Shown here piece by piece: positions 5,897-38,400 of a DNA stretch of 46,456 nt; position 1 is the stretch's first letter; every line of letters begins with the position of its first letter. Source of the DNA: Cochliopodium minus (lineage: Eukaryota > Discosea > Himatismenida > Cochliopodiidae); the NCBI GenBank assembly GCA_024220525.1, contig JAMYWO010000139.1, positions 68,412 through 114,867 on the forward strand, given 5' to 3'. A model generated the notes under the pieces. That model made no database searches, had not been told where the DNA came from, and saw only the letters and a program-made list of their open reading frames with translations. The position numbers and the translations under genes were made by a program.

Positions 5897-8277
<2,381 letters not shown>

Positions 8278-10931: not shown

Positions 10932-13113
10932 TTATAACTTAAATTTTTCTTTCAATTCTTCATAAACTTCTTCATAGATGGTTTTTCCAAGCGTAGATTG
11001 TCTACTATTGATGTCCTCAATTTTTTCTTTGAATTCTTTGATTTCTTTTTCTTGTTCCTCTTCAATGTGTTCTAATTTGAGATTCTTAGATTTGAGCTCT
11101 TGGATCTCTTCTTCTTGTCCTTGGATCTTTTGTTCTTCTCTCTTTTCGATTTTAAAAGATTGTTCTTTTTGGGTCTCACTATCTTGTTTGAGGAGATCAA
11201 TCTCTTTCTTTTGGACATCAAGATCCTTTCTCAATTTTCTGGTGAGTTCTGAAGATCTTCTTCTAAGATTGTTGTCATCTATAACTCTAGATCTTTGGTA
11301 GACGTGGTAAATGTAACCAGGTGCCCCTAAACAAAAAAGAAACAATTAATTTTGATAATAAAATCAATTTGTTGAGATATACAAATAGAGTTCAAAAATT
11401 CTCACCATTTCTTCCTATTACTGATTCTCCCCTATCACCTTTATTTCCTTTGTCTCCTTTATTTCCATTGTCACCTTTGTCTCCTTGTGGCCCGTTTGGT
11501 TCTCCTTTGTTACCTTTATCTCCTTTGTCTCCTTACTTCCCTATCTCCTTTAAGCTTCCTTTATCTCCTTTATTACCTTTATTACCCTTGTCTCCTTTAC
11601 TTCCTTTGTCCCCTTGTTACCCTTGTCACCTTACTTCCCTTGTCTCCCTTACTTCCTTATCTCCCTTTATCACCTTTATTTCTCTTGTCTCCTTATCACC
11701 CTTATCTCCTTGTCACCCTTACTTCCTTTATCTCCTTGTCACCTTTGTTTCCTTATCACCTTATCTCCTTTGCTACCTTTATCACCCTTATCTCCTTTAT
11801 CACCTTGCTTCCCTTGTCACCTTTATCACCTTTGTTTCCTTTATCACCTTTATCTCCTTTGTCACTTTATCACCCTTACTTTGTCACCTTTATCACCTTT
11901 GTTTCCTTTATCTCCTTATCACCTTATCTCCTTTGTCACCTTTGTTTCCTTTATCACCTTTATCTCCTTTATCACCTTTATCTCCTTTGCTTCCTTATCT
12001 CCTTTGTCACCTTATCACCTTTATTTCCTTTGTCTCCCTTATCACCTTATCTCCTTTATCACCTTTGTCTCCTTCATCACCTTTATCCCTTTTGATACCT
12101 TTATCACCTGTGTTACCTTTATCTCCTTTTTCTCCTTTATCTCCAGTATTACCTTGTCTCCCCTTGTCTCCATTATCTCCTTTATCTCCTTTGCTTCCGT
12201 CTGAACTCCAGGAACAACAAATCTAAAATAAGCCTTTCATTAAAAAAGAAAATTAAAAGTTATAGAAATTAAAATTAAAGAATTTAAAATTGTTAATCTT
12301 TACAATTTGATTTTCAGCAACACTATCATCATTTCCATTCGCTTGAGCTTCTGCATTGGTTGCATAAGCTTTTGGATTATTCAGTCCAATTTGTCTTTGA
12401 TCAGCCCAAATGAGGGATGCACATTCTGAAATCCCTTGATATGCACCAGTTGTTGTACTCTCATAGCCAACATCATTTCTTGGATAAATTACATATGCTC
12501 CCCACCAATTCAGATCTGCTTCATAATTAATTGAAAACCACGATGATCCTTTTTGATCAACGCTGGGTGCTGAAGTATTACTTCTAAAGTTTTTTTATTG
12601 AGGATTGAAAAAAAAGATAGAAAAAAAAAAGTTTTTGAGTTGATTACATAGTTGCAATCCAACCATTTGTTGAAGTTGTGTAAAGTGCAACTGCTGTTCT
12701 AATTTCTGCAATAAGAATGGCAGGATTAAATTTATTTTGAGGATCTGCTTTAGGACCATTCTGTGCTTTTATCGCAATCACAGTTCCTGGGAGGATCGTT
12801 CTAGCTAATTGTTTTGTATTCCTCCAATCACTTCCATCATTATTATTTGGTTGAGGGCTCAAATTAGCAGTGACATCAACCCCATCAACATAGATTTCGA
12901 AAAGGTAATTATCAACAGTTAAACTTATTCCTAAAATTTATGATAAAGAAACAGGAAATCAATTTTATCTTTTTTTTTATTGTTTTATCGAGTCAAATTT
13001 TATATACCTTGACCAGTTGATCCACTTGTGCATGTTGAATTTACACTTCCAGATAGAATCAAAACCAAAAAAAATATTACAAAAGAAATGGATCTATTCA
13101 AATGTGGTGCCAT
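10932..13113 (-). CDS. Collagen-like protein B with sugar-binding-like head (collagen exon frame-disrupted)
   Basis: Exons 13113-13008 (signal peptide [19 protein letters not shown]), 12930-12648, 12583-12304, 12233-11406 (collagen) and 11326-10932 (coiled-coil tail). All boundaries match copy A in position and phase. The head (about 200 residues) has the pattern [17 protein letters not shown]...[24 protein letters not shown] and ECASLIWAD, which resembles galactose-binding-like beta-sandwich domains (DN..YVNG...G.NVIAI...W...WIW); no database match could be run. The collagen exon is 828 bases, half that of copy A, and its length breaks phase. It has well over ten one-base losses, mostly in A runs of Lys codons, while head and tail exons are intact. 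The tail differs from A by many residues, so B is a true paralogue. Alternative: the frame breaks are consensus errors in a repeat. Confidence 0.8.
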
Positions 13114-26974: not shown

Positions 26975-29900
26975 TTATTTGTTACATTTTGTGCAATCAC
27001 AATACACAGTTTCTAACTTGGCGGGTCCCAAATCATGTCCCAAGTGGCATGTTTCTTTGAAATAAATAAAATTAGGTTAAAGAAATTTCTTTTATATAAA
27101 TTTATTACTTGAACATGTAACACAAACTCCTAAATTGTCGTCATCAAGAAAGCAATCCCTGCAGTGAAACCACACCTGTATAACTATTTTTTAAAAAAAA
27201 AATTTGGAGAAATAAAAAAAAATAAAAAAAATGTACAAACAAAACCAATCACAAAAAAAAATAAAAAATAAAAATGGATTTACCATGTCCTTGTTTTGTG
27301 TAACTTGAGGTACATTTTCCCTCTGAAATACAACATTCAATGGATTGTTTGTTATTGTTAGGGTTAGATGATTGCTCCACTTGGTATTTGTCAAAATCAA
27401 AAGAAGAGAGGATTTCTTTTTTATCCAAAAATTTGCAAATCTCAAAAAAAGACCACCCATCATTGTTTTCTGACAATAAATAAATTTAAAAAATTAAAAT
27501 TTAAAAAATGAAATTAAAAAAAATTAAAATTTAAAATTTTTACCTTTTTTGGGGTTCAAACCATTATCAATTAGGAGTTTAACAGATTCAAGACTTATCT
27601 GTGATTTATTAAGTAAGGAATGGAGCAGAGTATCTCCTTTTGTAATAGTAACTATATTGACATCTGCTCCCTTCTCGATGAGGAATTTAGGAACATCTGG
27701 TTCACAAACTGAAAAAGCAACAAAAAGAATACTTTCTCCCTTTTAAAAAAGTTGAAATTATTTACAAAAAAAAATAAAACAAAAAAATTTAAAAAATAAT
27801 TAAAATAATTTAAATTGAAAAATTAAAAATAGAAAAAAATAACGAATAAATTCAATAAAAATAAAAAATAAAAATGAATAACTATTAAAAAAAAAAAATT
27901 AAATTTACTTCTAAATTAACGTAATTGAGATCTGTTTTCTCGTTGACAAGCAATTTAACGGTTTGTAAAGTGGGTCTAAAGAGCAATATGGAAGAGAGGG
28001 GATTATAATAGCCCTTTTTGTTGTTTGAATTGATGTTTGCTCCGTTTTCCACCAAAAATTTGATTTTTTCATGAGGGAGATTATTTGTGCAAGCCAAGTA
28101 AATTGGTTGATAACAAGGTTCGGGGTTCACTTTTGCACCATTTTCTATCAGGTACTGTTTTTTGTCAAAAATTATTTATTAAAAATTATTTATTAAAAAT
28201 TATTTATTAAAAATTATTTATTAAAAATTATTTATTTATTAAACTAAATAAAAATTTAAAAAAAAATAATTAATTATTTCAAAAAAAAATAAAAAAAAAA
28301 GTTTTTACCTTCATTACTTCGACATCTGCGTTAACTTGGCAACATGCACCAAGAAGTGTGACTCCCTTTTTAAAAAAATAAAAATTAAAAAATTAAAAAA
28401 TTGAAAATTGAAATATTAAAAAATTAAAAAATTAAAATAACATTAAAAAATTAAAAAATAAAATTAATTTACAAAAAATAAAAAATTGAATAATTAAAAT
28501 AATTTAAATTGAAAAATTAAAAATAGAAAAAAATAACGAATAAATTCAATAAAAATAAAAATAAAAAATAAAAATAATTGTTTTAAATAAATGAAAAATA
28601 AATACATATTCATTAAAAAAATTGAGATCTGTTTTATCGTTGACAATCAGCTTAACGGTTTCCAACTTGTGTCCATTGATCAACAAATAGAAGAGGGAAG
28701 AAATTTGGGTGCCTCTATAACTGTTCAAATTGATGTCTGCTCCATTTTCCACCAAAAATTTGATTTTTTCATGAGGGAGATTATTTGCACAAGCCAAGTA
28801 AATTGGTTGATAACAAGATTCATCGGTGTTCACTTTTGCACCATTGTCTATCAGGTACTGTTTTTGTAAAAAATCGTTAATTAAAATTTTTTATTTAAAA
28901 GTAAATTATTTTAAGCTTTTTATTTAAAAAAATAATTAATTATTTCAAAAAAAATTAAATTTAAAAAAATGATTATTTATTTCAAAAAAAATTTATTTAA
29001 AATTGAATTTGTTGTGAAATTATCTTAAAAAAAATTTTTTTGCGAGTTTTTACCTTCATTACTTCAACATCTATGTTAAATTGGCAACATGCACCAAGAG
29101 GTGTGATTCCCTTTTAAATAAATATTGAAAATTAAAAAATTAAAAAATTAAAAAATTAAAAAATTGAAATATTAAAAAATTAAAAAATTAAAATAACATT
29201 AAAAAATTAAAAAATAAAATTAAAAAATAAAAATAAAAAATAAAAATTAAATATTTAAACAATTTTTTTTAAGAAAATAGGTACCTGATAATTAGGGATG
29301 TTCAAGTCTGCCTTAGAATCAACCAACAATTTTATTTTATCAAAGTTCAGTTTGTTGATACAAGAATAGTAAATGGGAGTGTATTTAAATTCTTGGCTGA
29401 CAAAGTTTACATTAGCACCTGAACCGACCAACAGCTGTTTTGGAAAAAATTAAAAATTAAAAATTTAAAAATAAATTATTCATTCTTTAAAATGAGAAAA
29501 TAGTAAATAAATAGTAAATAATAAATAATAAATAATAAATAATAAATAATAAATAATAAAATAATAAACAATAAATAATAAATAATAAATAATAAATAAT
29601 AAATAGTAAATAATAAATAATAAATAAATAAATAAAATCAAAAAAATAAAATTTATAAATAAATAAAATGTTCCAAAATATAAACCTTCATTTTTTCTAT
29701 GTCAATTTCATTTGAAGAACAAGAACAACACAAAGGGGAGATGTAGCGATCGTGAAGAATAGTGTAGGTTTCATCGCTACTTTCGTAGTCATCATAGTCA
29801 CCGTCATCTTCACTGTCGAAACATTCTCCACTGTCTTCCTCGCTGTCTTCCTCATAGACTACTGGTACATTTCCTTCCACTTTCTTCTCTTCCAAAGGAT

Positions 29901-32900
29901 TTTTGTTGGAATTTTCTAAATCAGCTCCAGAATCGATCAAAAACTGAAAAATTAAAAAAATTAAATTAAAAAATTAATCAAAAGAAATAAAAAAGGAAGA
30001 GATCAAAAAAAAATAGTTTTAAAAAAATTGAAAATAGTTTTAAATAATAGAAATAAATCAAAAATTTTTTAAAAAATTTACTTTGATTTTTGCAATGTCA
30101 ATGTTATACTGGATGGCAAGGGAGAGCGGGGAATTGGTTTCAGAATTTTGATGATTGATATCCACTTTGTTTTGGAGTAGTAATTCAAAATATTTGATGT
30201 CGGAATTTTGGCGGCAACAAATGTGGAACAAGTTTTCTCCTGTCATGTCCGCAATGTTTACGTCTGCTTTTCTTTCGATCATATTGGAAATGATTTCAAG
30301 ATTTATTTGGTTTCTAAATGCATAGTGAAGAGGAGTGTGTCCTTTTCTATTTTTCTTGTTGAAATCGTCTTGTGAAAGGTCCTTTGTCAACCTCAGAAAG
30401 GATTTCGTTTGGAGATTGGGAGAAATACAGAAAATGTGAATTGGGGAAACTTCTTCAAACTCACATTCATCTTGATTTGAGAAAATGAGAGCTTTCTCTT
30501 CTGTAAGAAAGTATTGGGTTATAGGAATGTTGTTTTTCGTTTGTTTATCAACAAAAAAGTCATGAAACTCAACAACAGTAGCACTTTCACTCATATCATT
30601 CAAGTTGTCATCCATCAAAGCACCGATCACTTCCAATGCTGCGAAATGCAAGTTAAAGTCTCCAAGGTGTTTTGAGAGTCTTTCCTTGAAGTAATCCATT
30701 TTCACTTTGAGATCTGTCGAAAAGTTGTTGATCCACCATTTGTGGTTTTCTTCACACAAACTTTGAAGTGCATTCTTTCTGACGATTTCTTTTTTGCTCT
30801 TTTTGATTTCATTCTCTCTTCTTTTTTCCAACTTCCTTTTATACTCTTCAACAGGATGTTCAGATGTAATTTCCTTCTTTGCTTTGTCAACCCACTCCGA
30901 AGGTTCGTACTCCTTTCTTTCCCCTTCGATGTACTTTTCTATTTCTTTCTTTTCGTTGAGGTAATGAGAAACAGTAACAACGGAATGTCCAATAGAACAA
31001 AGGAAAACAACAACATTACTTGCAAAGTTCTTGAAGACAACAACAGGTTTTTCATTTCCGACAATATAACTCAACTCTTTTGTTTCAAGATCAACAATCA
31101 TCGTTATTTTGTTTGATTCTCCAAAAAAATCTTCTTTTGGGTTCCCAACAATGTCACCACGAGAATTTGAAATGACAGAAGGACCCAATGCCCAAACACC
31201 ACTGTTCGAAGATTTAGGACAACAATCAAAGTTGAGATTTTTGATGACACCAACATCAATAACTCCAAGAAAAATGTTCCCATCGAGTTGATCAACAGTA
31301 AATTCAATGAGATGAATGCCATTCGTCAAAATCTTTTGAGAGAGAACAATGTTGGAAGGAAATCTTCCACAATAAAGAGATGTTCTTTCCTTGTTTATGA
31401 CAACCTTGCTTCCTTTCCACTTTAAGCTCCAACAAACTGAATGGGTGAGATCTTTGGGAGAAATTTCTTTATTTTCGAAAATATGCTTATCAATGTGTCT
31501 GTGAGAACTGAGATACTTATTGAATGTGAGGGTCAGTGGACTTGCAGTTGAAACAAAGAGATGGACTCCACTTGGTATTCCAGTGAAAGCAACATACTTT
31601 TTGTTGTCAAGGAGGTATGAAAACTCCAACTTTTCAAGATCGATTATCAATCCCACTTTCATATTATCACCGAAAATGAAATCTTCAAAAAAAGAAATGT
31701 TGCATGCTTTTGCTAATTTATTGCAGATCATTTTCCTTCCTTTTAAACAAATAAATAAAGTAAAATATTAATAGAGTATAAATAATTGATTCAAAAGAAA
31801 AATTATTACCTCCAACAGCCCAAATTGTATCATCATCATTCGGTTGTTCACTAAAAGAAATTTGTTTGCTATTTTCATCATTAATATTTTTTTGAGCAAT
31901 CCCAATGAAAGTAGTTTCGTTTGACTTTTCAATATAAATTTCGACAAAATGAACACCAGCATCGAAATGTTGTTCGGATAAAGCAGAATTGAAGAACCCC
32001 TTTGTATTTCTTTTCAACTGTTTAAGGTTTGTGCTCACCAAAAACTTTTTGCCACACTTCACTTGACTCCATTTGACACTTTTGAATATTTTGTTCTCTA
32101 AAATCAAAGGTTTGAATTCTTTTTGAGAAAGTGTCCTTTGATCATTTCTATCCAAAAGATATTCATCGATGAATTTCTCATTGTTGATGTATTTTGTCAA
32201 AGTTACGACATTGTTTTTTGATAGGCAAGCAAACAGTCTCACTTGATTCGCCAATTTTCCAAAAATAAATTCTTTTCTGATAATGGTTTTTCCATTTTCA
32301 AAGAGATAAACAAAAACTTCTAAATTCTTCATATCTATCAAGAATCCCACAAACGAACCATCTTTAAATTTGATTGCTTTTCCATTTCCAAAAGATTTTC
32401 CAATGAATGAATTGCAAATAAGATCATTTCCTTTTTTGGGAAAAAAAAAGTTATAAATGATGGATGTTGTTAAATATGAATCTATAGAATGATGGGACAT
32501 GATTGAAGAAAAATTTTACCAATTACACAAACTTTTTCAGATTCTCTTACTTCCAACTCACAGTCTACTTCTTTTGAAATAGCAGAACCAATTCCCAAAT
32601 ACAATCCATCACATTTTTGGAGATAAAGTTCTACATAATGAAGATAACATTTTTCTTCATCTTCCTCTTCTTCTAGTTTATAGCTTTTGTATTTTGCATC
32701 AGGAACTAAAACAAAGTCTTTTGGATCCGAAGAAGCTGTATGAACATGTTGAGAATCAGAAGACGGTAAATGTATTTGATCTTTTGAATCGGAAGTAGGT
32801 GTATGTATTTGATCTTTTGAATCAGAAGTAGGTGTATGTATTTGATCTTTTGAATCAGAAGTAGGTGTATGTATTTGGTCTTTTAAATCAGAAGTGGGTG

Positions 32901-35056
32901 TATGTATTTGATCTTTTGAATCAGAAGTTGGTGTATGTATTTGATCTTTTAAATCAGAAGAAGGTGTATGTATTTGAGCACCAGAATTAATTTCTTTTTG
33001 ATCAATAGCAGATGGGCTTACTTTTGCACGAGATCCTGCAGATACAATTTTTGCTTGAACTCTTTTTGGAGCAACAAAGACTTGTTCAGACAGAACGCCA
33101 TTGTATGTTACCTTTTCGTCTTTGATGGCAGTCGTGTTGTGGTTTTTGAGTTCAATTTTGCTTCCCTTTCTTTCATTCAATGTACTCCAACTTATCTTGT
33201 CATATTTTCCGTTTGATAAGACAAAAGGAGATGCTATGTAACCACTTTCCACTTTGAAGTTTTCAACAAACTTATTTTTTTCGCTTTCACTTTTGAATTC
33301 TTTGTATTTTGTGAATGTGATCATTGTTCCATCACTTGAAGATGCAAATATATGGAATGGAGCAACAAAAGAAATCTTTAGGAATAATTTAGTGGTATTC
33401 CCATAACAGATTGATATTTCTCCTTTTCCAAAGTCAAAAAGAAAACCAATATCATTTGAATTTTTCAACTCTTTTGAAACTTCCTCAAGATCCTTTTAAA
33501 AAAAATCAAATTAAAAAAAAAATTAAAAATTTACTTTCAAAAATAACCTCTTTCTTTGAAATTTCGTTATTGCTTGAAGAATCAAAAATATTTTCATCAG
33601 GTCCTATCGCCCATATTTGTTCAGAGTTTCTCGGAAATCCTTCAAAACTAACCTTTCCAAGCAAACAAACTCCCAAAAATAACTTGTTTTCCTCCTGTTA
33701 TAATAAAAATTAAAATCATTTACCAACTAATCAACCAAAAAATTTTTTTACTAATTTATCAAGGTGGATTTCAACATAATGTATTCCTTTATCATATGAT
33801 TGTTCTGAAACTACTGAATTCATTCTTTTCCCATCTTTTAAAATTTTTTAAAAATTAGTATAGTCTACTATTATAATACAACATCTACTAAATTATATTG
33901 AAATAGAATGTTAAATTATTTTACTTGAAATAAATGTCCTTTTATCATTGGATAAAGAAATCATGTTTCCTTTTTGTTTTGAGCTCCACTCAATCCCATC
34001 TTTATGAGCCTTTTCAACTTCTACGAATAACATCCTCATTATTTCGTTCAACACAACGAGAATTCCTTCCTTGAAAATATTTGCAAAACACTGACTCTTC
34101 ACTTTTGTTGAAGGAACCAACATGTTTGGTTTTTTGAGTTCTACTTTGAGTTTTTCGAAATCATTCTCAGAGATCAAATCTTTTCTTTTTTCTTTTTTCT
34201 CGAGTATTTTAATGTGACCTTTGAAACTGAATTCAAGAAATATAATATTTTTTTTTTAAATAAAAATTCTGTAAAAATCAAAAACTTACATTTCAAAAAA
34301 TTCATCACAATCAACGTACAATTTTTCTCCATAATTCTTCATCCAAAATTTAGTTGCTTTTATATTATTTAGTAAAATAATAACTGAAAAATATAATATA
34401 ATTTTTTATTTTTTATACTTTCTTTGTTTGTTGAAATGAAAAAGGTTTGGTTCATTCCTTTTTTGATGTTTTTATCAAGTTTATCATTAGCATTTTCATC
34501 AGATAAACAGAGGATCTCAGTGATTTTTTCTTTGAATTCTTTTCCTTCAAGAAATTTATCCACTTTAATTAGATCCACAATTTTCTTCTCTTCTCTTTCA
34601 TAGATGATTTCAGTTCCCAAATATACTCTCACTGTATTTTCTTCATCTGATGTTATTTTCCCTCTAAAATAAAAAAGGTTTATTGAATGAATATATAGGG
34701 AAGGCTATTGGATGAAATGATATTATCAGATCTCCAAAATATTTTGCATTCCAAATTGTATGTATAAGATAAACGATTATCTGGATATATATTTGGTCTG
34801 ATCATATCTTTTTCAACAATTTGAAAAAAAATTTTCATTTTACTCTAGCTTTTGTCTGTAATATTTGAAGAACCTACAAAAAAGAATTATAAATCATCAA
34901 TTTTAAATTTTTATTTTAATTTAACTGATTGCAGAAAGAATTAAAATCTGTTTCCACTGTGCCTTCAAAGCATTTGGACCAGAATTCTCTCAGGTTTTCA
35001 TTTTTTATCGTCTTGATCATCATGTTTGCCAATTTTGCATGCATTTTTCCACTCAT
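26975..35056 (-). CDS. Giant SPRY(x4) / ankyrin / UBR-box protein
   Basis: About 20 exons, roughly 1,945 residues; all junctions from 34226 down to 26975 were checked for GT-AG and phase. N-terminal exons (35056-34926, 34873-34844, 34663-34419, 34383-34290, 34226-33925) have no recognised domain and their first joins are uncertain. Four SPRY domains follow (about residues 268-1130), with repeated SEQ...(H/I)(Y/F)VE, (L/I)G(I/V) and (I)WA(V/I)G motifs. SPRY2 is interrupted by an 11-residue repeat array. A Lys/Glu linker leads to about ten ankyrin repeats (residues 1290-1835; exons 29943-29686, 29434-29285, 29110-29054, 28857-28606, 28365-28309, 28154-27909, 27739-27544). The last exons (27469-27284, 27183-27109, 27054-26975) give a UBR box: GKC, HCRDC, GVCVTCSKTCHLGH, LETVYCDCTKC. 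UBR boxes bind N-degrons; SPRY and ankyrin bind other proteins. Inferred role: ubiquitin-pathway adaptor or receptor. No RING or HECT domain is visible. Confidence 0.85.
27909..29110 (-). repeat. Tandem duplication of an ankyrin exon pair
   Basis: Exons 29110-29054 plus 28857-28606 are repeated as 28365-28309 plus 28154-27909, offset by about 700-745 bases. Short exons read GITPLGACCQ.. and GVTLLGACCQ.., both ending in EVMK. Long exons share YLI(D/E)NGAKVN, CYQPIYLAC.NNLPHEKIKF and LVENGA(D/N)IN. Introns are alike too, so the duplication is recent. Confidence 0.9.
29512..29633. repeat. (AATAAAT)n-type intronic tract
   Basis: Runs of AAT, AAAT and AGT units in the intron between two ankyrin exons of the SPRY/UBR gene. 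Confidence 0.9.
32770..32980 (-). repeat. 33-bp minisatellite coding DQIHTPTSDSK
   Basis: About six to seven units of 33 bp, coding an 11-residue repeat inserted between two conserved strands (LSEQ and HYVELYL) of the second SPRY domain. The unit size keeps the frame. Confidence 0.93.
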
Positions 35057-35480: not shown

Positions 35481-38400
35481 TTATTTGTTATTTGGGGTTT
35501 CCATTTCAATATCATTTGTCATCATTTTTTGATTAAATTCTTTTTTTTTCTTGCAAATTATGATGGAAACAATAATCGTGGTCACGATAGATGCAAAAAA
35601 AGCCAAAATAATTCCTGTTATGGCTCCAGCTGAAATTCTAGACTTGGTAGATGGAGTTGGTGTAGATGGAATTAAACTTGATGGAAAAGAAGTAGATGGA
35701 GTTGATGTAGAAGGGATCATGGTTGATGCAGTTTCAGTTGATGGAATTTGTGTAGATGGAATTAAACTTGATGGAAAAGAGGTAGATGGAGTTTCGGTTG
35801 ATGGAGTTAATGTTGATGGAATTAAACTTGATGGAAAAGAAGTAGATGGAGTTGATGTAGAAGGGATGTTTGATGCAGTTTCAGTAGATAGAGTTGATGT
35901 AGAAGGGATCATGGTTGATGGAGTTTCAGTTGATGGAGTTTGTGTAGATGGAATTAAACTTGATGGAAAAGAGCTAGATGGAGTTAATGTTGATGGAATT
36001 AAACTTGATGGAGTTAATGTAGAAGGAGTTTCAGTTGATGGAGTTTCAGTTGATGGAATTAAACTTGATGGAAAAGAGGTAGATGGAGTTTCGGTTGATG
36101 GAGTTAATGTTGAAGGTTTTAAAGTTGACGGAGAAGTTGTAGTAAGAGAGGTGGGAACTAATTATAGAATAAAAACAAGAAAAAAAAAATTAAAAAAAAA
36201 AAATCTACCCACTGTTGAAGGACATCCTTCTGTTTGTTTTAAATGAAAAAAAAAAAATGTATTATTATAAATTATAAATTATAAATTAAAAAATACCTAT
36301 GCAATCACAAATACCAGGAGAATAATCATTTTCAATCAACAATCTATCGTTTCCCCAAATTGTATTTTGTGGAAAAAAAGAACTCACATTCTTGAAAAGA
36401 TTTGCACAACTCATTCCGTTTCCTTCTGTACTATTCCCCGCGATTGTGTTATCATAAAAAACGGTACTAGCATTTACTATGGCGCCTATCATACCGAACT
36501 GTTTTTTTTTTTATAAATATTTTTTTTTGAAGAAAAAATTCTGTTAAATTTTACTAATGCTCCGACATTATAACTTCCCAACGTGTTAGTGGCAGAATAA
36601 CAATTTGAAATAACAAAATTATTTATTGATGCGCCATATGTTCCTGAAATTCCTATAAAATATTTTATCATCAAATTTTATTAATTGTTTTAAATTATTG
36701 AAAATAAACCTCCTACTGCAAATTCACATTTTACATACTTTGTTCTTGAATAGGAATTTGAAAAATAAATGGTTTCATCAGCATAAAAATCTCCAAATAA
36801 TCCTCCACACTTTTTTTTAAAAAAATAAAAAATAAAAAATAAAAAATAAAAAATAAAAAATAAAAAATAAAAAATAAAAAATAAGAAATAAGAAATGAAA
36901 AATAAGAAAAAAAAAAATCTACAATACTTTTTCCTAAAACAATAACTTCTTTTTTTGAGAAAATTTGGTCTACATTTGACAGACAATGTTCTCCAATGAC
37001 TCCTTTTGATTGAAAACAAGTAAATAAGAAAAAGTGAAAGAAATTTAACATACCCCCCATTACTCTATCCGAAAAAATGGTTCCTCTTAAAATTCCTGAA
37101 TTGGAAATATTAGATCTTACTTTTTAATAAAAAAAAAATTTAAACATAAGATAAAAAAAAAAAAAAAAAAAAGAATTGCTTAAAATGCCAACTAATCCTC
37201 CGACGCTAGCTTTGTAATCAAATTAATTTTTTTAAAAAAAATTTTTTGAAAAAAATTTTAACCTAAGCCGTTGATTATTGCTTGGGATTTATTCGAAGGA
37301 AATCCGTTGTTGAACAGGTAACTCAAATTTGATGAATCTGCATAACCAATCATCCCTCCCACATAGATTCCCTCAGATTTTATAGTTGTATTTGTAATGG
37401 TACATCGTGACATCGAGCCTTTTTTTAAAAAAAATTGTTTTTAAAAATCTTTTGTACATTTTTCGAAATAAATTAATACTTTTATAGTAGAGATGGACAA
37501 ATTTAAAAAGTTTAAACTTTTTTAGTAATAAATTGCTAACAAAGTCTAAATTTTTGACATTAAATTATATTAATTTTACCAATATTAAAAACTCCAGCCA
37601 AACCCCCATAATAATTCCCCCCCATTGATTTTGTACTAATCAAATTTTCCGAGCTGTTTTTCGTAGTTAATTGGACGTTTTGAACAATGCAATAATCGCA
37701 ATAGCCAACCAATGAACCAATGTAACTTGTTACATCTACATTTGTTGAACTTACACTGATATCTTGTAATGTAAGATTGGTAATTGTACAATTTTCTCCA
37801 CTGGCAAACAACCCTATGTACTCTAAAATATTTGTTGAGATGTTTACATTCGATATTACAAAGCCTTTTCCATCAAAATTTCCTTTGAATGTTGATGATG
37901 AGCTTCCAATTGGAATGAATGGATTATTTGTCGAACAATCCTAAAAAAAAAATATTTATATTTTTAAACTAGCTCACAAAAATTTCATTGAATTCAAGAA
38001 TTTTGAGTATTCAATGTAATATGAAATTTTTTTTATAAACTTTATCGAGTAAAAACCAAGAATCGCATCGAAATTAAAACAAAAAATAAAATATTTTTCT
38101 TTCTAATTAAGATATGTTATTCTCGGGCATAATGAGTACCCACACTAAAATTTTTTGTAAAATCATTTGAATGCATTATAAAGATAAAGTGATTTCAATT
38201 ACACATTAATCACCATGATTTTAAGCATTATACTTGAAATGATCTGATATAAACAGAACTCAAATTTGATGCAAAGAAATTTCGAATAATTCAAGATTTT
38301 TGCAATTTTTATAAAAAATATCATATTTCAAAATTATACTATGTAATTTTTGATAAAATTGTTTACAATGTTTGAAGCCAATTGATAACTAACAGTATAA

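Follow-up and report, generated by a model that had tools for sequence, protein, structure and literature searches.

A C-terminal UBR box on a SPRY–ankyrin protein of Cochliopodium minus and a genomic family of ankyrin–UBR genes with differing front ends

The DNA analysed here (the window) is a stretch of 46,456 nucleotides of Cochliopodium minus, contig JAMYWO010000139.1 (C139:68412-114867; other loci are likewise called by their contigs), in a genome of 44.65 Mb and 598 contigs. On its minus strand lies a gene whose coding region (26975..35056) runs from an ATG at 35056 to a stop at 26975. Its 20 exons join in one frame of 1937 codons without an internal stop, all 19 introns of this sequence-based model have GT-AG borders, and the DNA has a G+C content of 21–34%. 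The extent and strand are exactly those of an original prediction, which had also described a protein of SPRY domains and ankyrin repeats ending in a UBR box; that order is borne out by Pfam, phmmer and the gene model. Judged by its sequence, the gene is real and is predicted to encode a scaffold-like protein of 1937 residues without a recognised catalytic domain, and the presence of a C-terminal UBR box on a SPRY–ankyrin protein is confirmed beyond chance. The exons lie at 35056-34926, 34873-34844, 34663-34419, 34356-34290 and 34226-33925 (exons 1-5), 33834-33752, 33694-33548, 33492-32520, 32430-31810 and 31739-30082 (exons 6-10), 29943-29686, 29434-29285, 29110-29054, 28857-28606 and 28365-28309 (exons 11-15), and 28154-27909, 27739-27544, 27469-27284, 27183-27109 and 27054-26975 (exons 16-20). 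An additional exon at about 34820-34680, between exons 2 and 3, was rejected: it has no frame-keeping GT donor, and splicing exon 2 directly to exon 3 keeps the frame.

The UBR box comprises residues 1875-1937 at the extreme C-terminus, is encoded by three exons (26978..27320, minus strand) and was recognised by Pfam, phmmer and alignment. Searched with phmmer against solved structures, the 69-residue tail matched the human UBR4 box most closely (expectation value, E, 1.5e-10), then FBXO11 (8e-7), with further matches to a protein named only as a 'UBR-type domain-containing protein' and to the plant BIG protein. The Pfam profile zf-UBR (PF02207) gave 31.8 bits against a cut-off of 25.2, with a query trimmed to 60 residues and with that trim only. 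All ten Cys and His residues of the stretch aligned with UBR4 are present, which agrees with the full set of metal ligands that had been claimed (the assignment of individual residues to individual zincs is presumably the one usual for UBR boxes). Binding to N-terminal residues has been measured for the UBR4 box, where Asp1715 and the backbone of Phe1713 hold the amino group of the ligand and Phe1671 and Phe1713 contact its side chain (PMC10687169). Asp1931 of the window protein, in the CDC motif, aligns with Asp1715 of UBR4, and the aromatic residue before it is Tyr1929 in place of Phe1713. Because this pocket Asp is present, the reading of free N-termini is plausible for the window protein.

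Ahead of the box, the protein passes from a weak EF-hand-like N-terminus through four SPRY units and the ankyrin repeats to a linker of about 50 residues (all coordinates on the minus strand). The N-terminal region (residues 1-234; 33998..35056) contains an EF-hand-like stretch at residues 132-171, a weak match to Cbl_N2 at 18.7 bits, below the cut-off of 22. SPRY unit 1 (residues 235-398; 33304..33997) is a member of the family SPRY profile that matches TRIM9, and returned no Pfam SPRY row when the N-terminal 398 residues were scanned. Unit 2 (residues 434-740; 32189..33198), identified from its position and its likeness to the second unit of the relatives C482 and C235, carries an 11-residue repeat insert, encoded by a 33-nt repeat of the IHTPTSDSKDQ type in 6.8 copies (32753..32977); scanned only as two exon pieces, it returned no Pfam SPRY row. 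Unit 3 (residues 776-942; 31513..32083) includes the best stretch of the whole-protein SPRY match (residues 823-940) and scored 19.1 bits as a piece, and unit 4 (residues 966-1127; 30958..31443), the first row of the profile, scored 19.9 bits as an exon, both under the cut-off. Over the whole protein, Pfam reported SPRY at 32.5 bits (two stretches; cut-off 26.3); scanned in pieces, none of the units reaches the cut-off. The profile was built from eight units (units 1, 3 and 4 of the window and five units of C482 and C235, with unit 2 of the window excluded) and matched, among solved structures, the SPRY domains of TRIM9 (2.2e-11) and TRIM67 (5.3e-11). A single-sequence structure model of the unit 4 region had a predicted local distance difference test score (pLDDT) of 35. 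The SPRY units are followed by a charged, possibly EF-hand-like linker (residues 1128-1300; 30439..30957), a weak assignment with EF-hand rows only in the C482 equivalent, and by the ankyrin repeats (residues 1301-1820; 27557..30438), which match Ank_2 at 155.4 bits in nine stretches and include a tandem duplication of two exons with like introns (29110-28606 and 28365-27909). The conserved ankyrin–UBR linker (residues 1821-1874; 27321..27556) is found again, by linker searches and alignment, in nine further loci of this genome. The absence of RING and HECT had been noted originally, and a Pfam scan of all 1937 residues, which listed matches with E up to 1, gave no row for either of them or for F-box or PHD; since the same whole-protein scan overlooked the UBR box too, a small zinc domain could be overlooked likewise. 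BTB, SOCS and other ligase-docking domains were also not reported over the whole protein.

The window gene is one of at least 11 in the genome with three parts in common, namely an ankyrin stack, a linker of about 50 residues and a UBR4-type box near or at the C-terminus, and this family context is more interesting than the single protein. Three linker queries found the same ten loci (C139, which is the window gene, C504, C508, C492, C300, C149, two at C373, here C373a and C373b, C148 and C482), of which C482 was the weakest (E of 0.05, 2e-4 and 0.07); the eleventh, C235, was found by SPRY similarity and has the UBR tail. The count is a lower bound because the search scores only the best candidates. 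UBR tails can be spliced in frame with GT-AG borders in the window and at nine of the ten other loci, the candidate most like the window tail having been taken among the GT-AG candidates of each relative; no splice was resolved for the tail of C373b. Inside the box, all ten spliced members agree in the alignment column and phase of the first intron, and eight in those of the second, which is absent from C508 and C373a, while one extra intron at a single column is common to C492, C300 and C148. Nine Cys/His positions are invariant across the ten aligned boxes and a tenth is nearly so. Three of the nine spliced relatives exceed the zf-UBR cut-off in Pfam (C504, 28.8 bits; C492, 29.0; C148, 31.1). 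Viral contigs were scanned with the UBR tail of the window as well, yielding no relative and two pattern matches, neither of which was confirmed.

Compared across these loci, the ankyrin–UBR part has the look of a module placed at the C-terminus, whose front ends can be exchanged (tandem SPRY units, caspase plus NACHT and possibly others) and are in part NLR-like. SPRY lies upstream of it in the window, C504, C482, C235 and C373b; in C482, SPRY reaches 30.6 bits, over the cut-off, and between SPRY and the ankyrins there are EF-hand matches of 12-18 bits, none of which reaches the cut-off. A different front is found in C300, where a single open frame of 1182 residues begins with caspase (45.5 bits against a cut-off of 21.4), passes through NACHT (52 bits; 26.7), ankyrins (56.4 bits; 27.3) and the linker, and takes in the first of the UBR exons. 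NACHT is common in this genome (26 match rows, 25 of them over the cut-off). At C149, an ATPase frame (L069; C149:12966-10598, minus strand; 34.1 bits against a cut-off of 33.2) lies upstream of the ankyrin–UBR gene on the same strand and is a candidate front end only. The frame after this ATPase frame resembles CRN-type proteins by eye, with no Pfam row. Frames upstream in C148 are SPRY-like by eye, yet the joined query gave no SPRY row in Pfam, and no front domain was seen by eye within 5 kb upstream of C492. C508 and C373a are located at contig edges. SPRY with part of the ankyrins is also present at C466, where the contig ends about 840 bases further on.

Several known systems share parts of this architecture. 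The SPRY domains of TRIM9 and TRIM67 are those matched by the SPRY profile of the family; TRIM proteins carry a RING, whereas the window protein has four tandem SPRY units and no reported RING. FBXO11, which has a C-terminal UBR box and beta-helix repeats but no RING or HECT, resembles the window protein in its box; neither an F-box nor beta-helix repeats, however, were reported by Pfam in the window protein. A separate gene with an FBXO11-like order, with a weak F-box match, is found elsewhere in the genome (L046; C258:51594-49871, minus strand): F-box at 13.9 bits, beta-helix-like frames by eye, and a UBR box at 17.5 bits, both scores below their cut-offs. The box of human UBR4 (PDB 8j9r and 8j9q) is the closest solved sequence and has in common with the window box the ten Cys/His residues and the amine-binding Asp in the CDC motif. 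UBR4 chains, however, have about 5200 residues and their own catalytic module, an atypical 'hemiRING' (PMC10873205), whereas the window box ends a SPRY–ankyrin protein. The original statement that UBR boxes normally occur with RING or HECT proved too narrow, given this hemiRING, the F-box of UBR6/FBXO11, which works through SCF, and the PHD finger of UBR7 (PMC8346999). In mammals, seven UBR-box proteins have been counted, all assigned to the ubiquitin pathway (PMC8346999). Likeness to NLR receptors, which join NACHT to a repeat sensor, comes through C300, with its caspase, NACHT and ankyrins ahead of the common linker and UBR box; in the window protein, Pfam reported neither NACHT nor NB-ARC. 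Lastly, ankyrin–RING ligases of the XB3 type also combine ankyrins with a C-terminal zinc domain and have many copies in one protist, Giardia, which has 30 (PMC7029713); their zinc domain, however, is a RING and not a UBR box.

With its stack of repeats, its zinc box for the reading of ligands and its interchangeable front ends, the set of genes resembles an intracellular receptor or adaptor family, and the inclusion of a caspase–NACHT protein shifts the weight toward a receptor role. Our tentative preference, which falls somewhat short of probable, is that the ankyrin–UBR end may be the ligand-reading end of such a family, with the UBR box reading N-termini in some members. In the window protein, the ligand of the box would be the free N-terminus of a protein that had been cleaved, or had become exposed, in the cytosol, and the SPRY units would bind a second partner, upon which the target would be handed to a separate ubiquitin ligase or a signal would be passed on; in the caspase–NACHT member, binding would trigger oligomerisation and the protease. 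That the box binds N-termini, that the protein acts as a receptor and that ubiquitin or cell death is involved are inferences. Both roles originally proposed, that of an N-degron receptor which serves a separate ligase and that of a sensor of cleaved proteins, would be compatible with the data. A bolder form of this reading, which we consider doubtful, is an NLR-like receptor class with the UBR box as its recognition end, in which the zinc scaffold would be fixed, the N-terminus pocket would vary among paralogs, and protease-exposed ends would be read directly and coupled to SPRY scaffolds or to a caspase–NACHT trigger.

A number of observations weigh against a ligand-reading role or against the evidence for it. 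At the position of the pocket Asp, the ten family boxes have D in three, N in three, S in two, and C and G in one each, the Asp being kept only in the window, C504 and C149; with seven of ten boxes lacking it, N-terminus binding of the known kind may be absent from most members. The family boxes may have come to read different ligands, or most of them may be structural only, neither being favoured by the data. The position of Phe1671 in UBR4 is taken by His1886 in the window box. Cys1724 of UBR4 is a further zinc ligand (PMC10687169) and falls outside the compared stretch; Cys1935 of the window, three residues past the CDC motif, could be its counterpart, and C508 and C492 have no Cys past that motif. 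Pfam returned no zf-UBR row for window queries of 63, 69, 179 and 1937 residues, so the result depends on the trim, and we ascribe the missing rows in the longer queries, probably, to the HMMER composition filter. The boxes of C508 (18.5 bits) and C482 (19.4 bits) remain under the zf-UBR cut-off, and those of C149, C300, C373a and C235 gave no row. As resemblance to the window tail guided the choice of splices in the relatives, the agreement among them depends in part on that choice. A Pfam scan of the entire window protein gave no match to NACHT or caspase. Finally, the ratio of nonsynonymous to synonymous substitution rates (dN/dS) between the duplicated ankyrin exons is about 0.84 over 101 codons, indicating neither strong constraint nor clear diversification, and purifying selection is therefore not supported in these exons, to which the estimate was confined because the paralogs were judged too diverged for dN/dS.

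Alternatively, the UBR box may serve as a zinc-stabilised interaction or capping module ending the ankyrin stack, in a family of scaffolds and not of N-terminus readers. The zinc ligands do not vary, whereas seven boxes, including those of C492 and C148 that pass in Pfam, lack the amine-binding Asp, and the ankyrin-to-UBR linker is conserved, as in one folded unit. The retention of the Asp in three members and the closeness of the window tail to the UBR4 box, a measured binder of N-terminal residues (PMC10687169), argue the other way, and we regard this alternative as quite possible, although we would not expect it to be correct. Another alternative would make the protein a plain adaptor that brings substrates to a separate E3 ligase of the Arg/N-degron pathway, FBXO11-like but without the F-box. 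That pathway is likely present in the genome, given matches for ATE1 (ATE_C, 74.3 bits) and for a PRT6-type gene at C73 (PRT6_C, 116.7 bits), with zf-UBR matches about 4 kb away on the same contig and strand. A box of the UBR4/FBXO11 kind and TRIM9-type SPRY units would suit an adaptor too. A role of this kind is nevertheless unlikely in our estimation: F-box, BTB, SOCS or another ligase-docking domain was not reported by Pfam, and the caspase–NACHT member is at odds with a plain adaptor.

The two remaining alternatives concern the gene itself. The model rests on sequence, and further UBR-box matches exist in the genome, so that the UBR exons might belong to another gene. This we find scarcely credible, and a two-gene artefact was ruled out by the agreement of frame and GT-AG sites and by recurrence at other loci: in-frame UBR tails occur at nine of them, with the first box intron at one column and phase, and the open frame of C300 that holds NACHT and caspase also contains the linker and the first of the UBR exons. 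That the gene is a decaying or non-expressed copy of a repeat-rich family is very improbable. The dN/dS value and the tail of C373b, for which no splice was resolved, could be read in that way, but 1937 stop-free codons across 20 exons in DNA of such low G+C content, with every aligned zinc ligand kept, could hardly be.

As far as the literature searches go, the architecture is a new combination of known domains, which may stand annotated in protein databases without a paper. No paper was found that unites UBR box, ankyrin and SPRY, in keeping with the claim that no protein with this order had been described; nor was one found that unites UBR box, NACHT and ankyrin, or SPRY, ankyrin, NACHT and caspase in a protist. 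The only literature found on zf-UBR together with ankyrin was a Giardia inventory, which lists them for different proteins, its one zf-UBR protein being matched to UBR1 (PMC7029713). As a whole, the original interpretation holds for the architecture and fails for the RING/HECT rule, and the family with its caspase–NACHT member had not been seen. If the family reading is true, the UBR box would be in use as an exchangeable receptor part, and a single chain uniting UBR box, NACHT and caspase would allow the direct sensing of protein ends to be tested. In the reviewed mammalian case, in contrast, the N-degron pathway reaches an NLR via a separate ligase, UBR2, which acts on cleaved mouse NLRP1B (PMC7483925).

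Other UBR-like loci and neighbouring frames were noted in passing. At least five UBR-box-like units, recognised by eye from the frames, stand in tandem at C190:60534-58698 (minus strand; L044 and L052), and a UBA domain (34.6 bits, over the cut-off) lies near a UBR-box-like frame of the same strand at C77:45640-46333 (plus strand; L043). Adjoining the window gene, a frame at 35481-36161 (minus strand) has PST-type repeats (TPST/IPSS) and, at its C-terminus, what by eye is a membrane stretch; a frame with a like pairing of repeats and membrane stretch (11016-9331) lies directly upstream of the ankyrin–UBR gene of C492. Elsewhere in the window, an open frame of 568 residues (6038-7744, plus strand) consists almost entirely of collagen-like GDKGNT repeats, in 86 copies of an 18-nt unit, and a second array (11433-12192), with 86 copies of a 9-nt unit, would give collagen-like GDK units on the minus strand.

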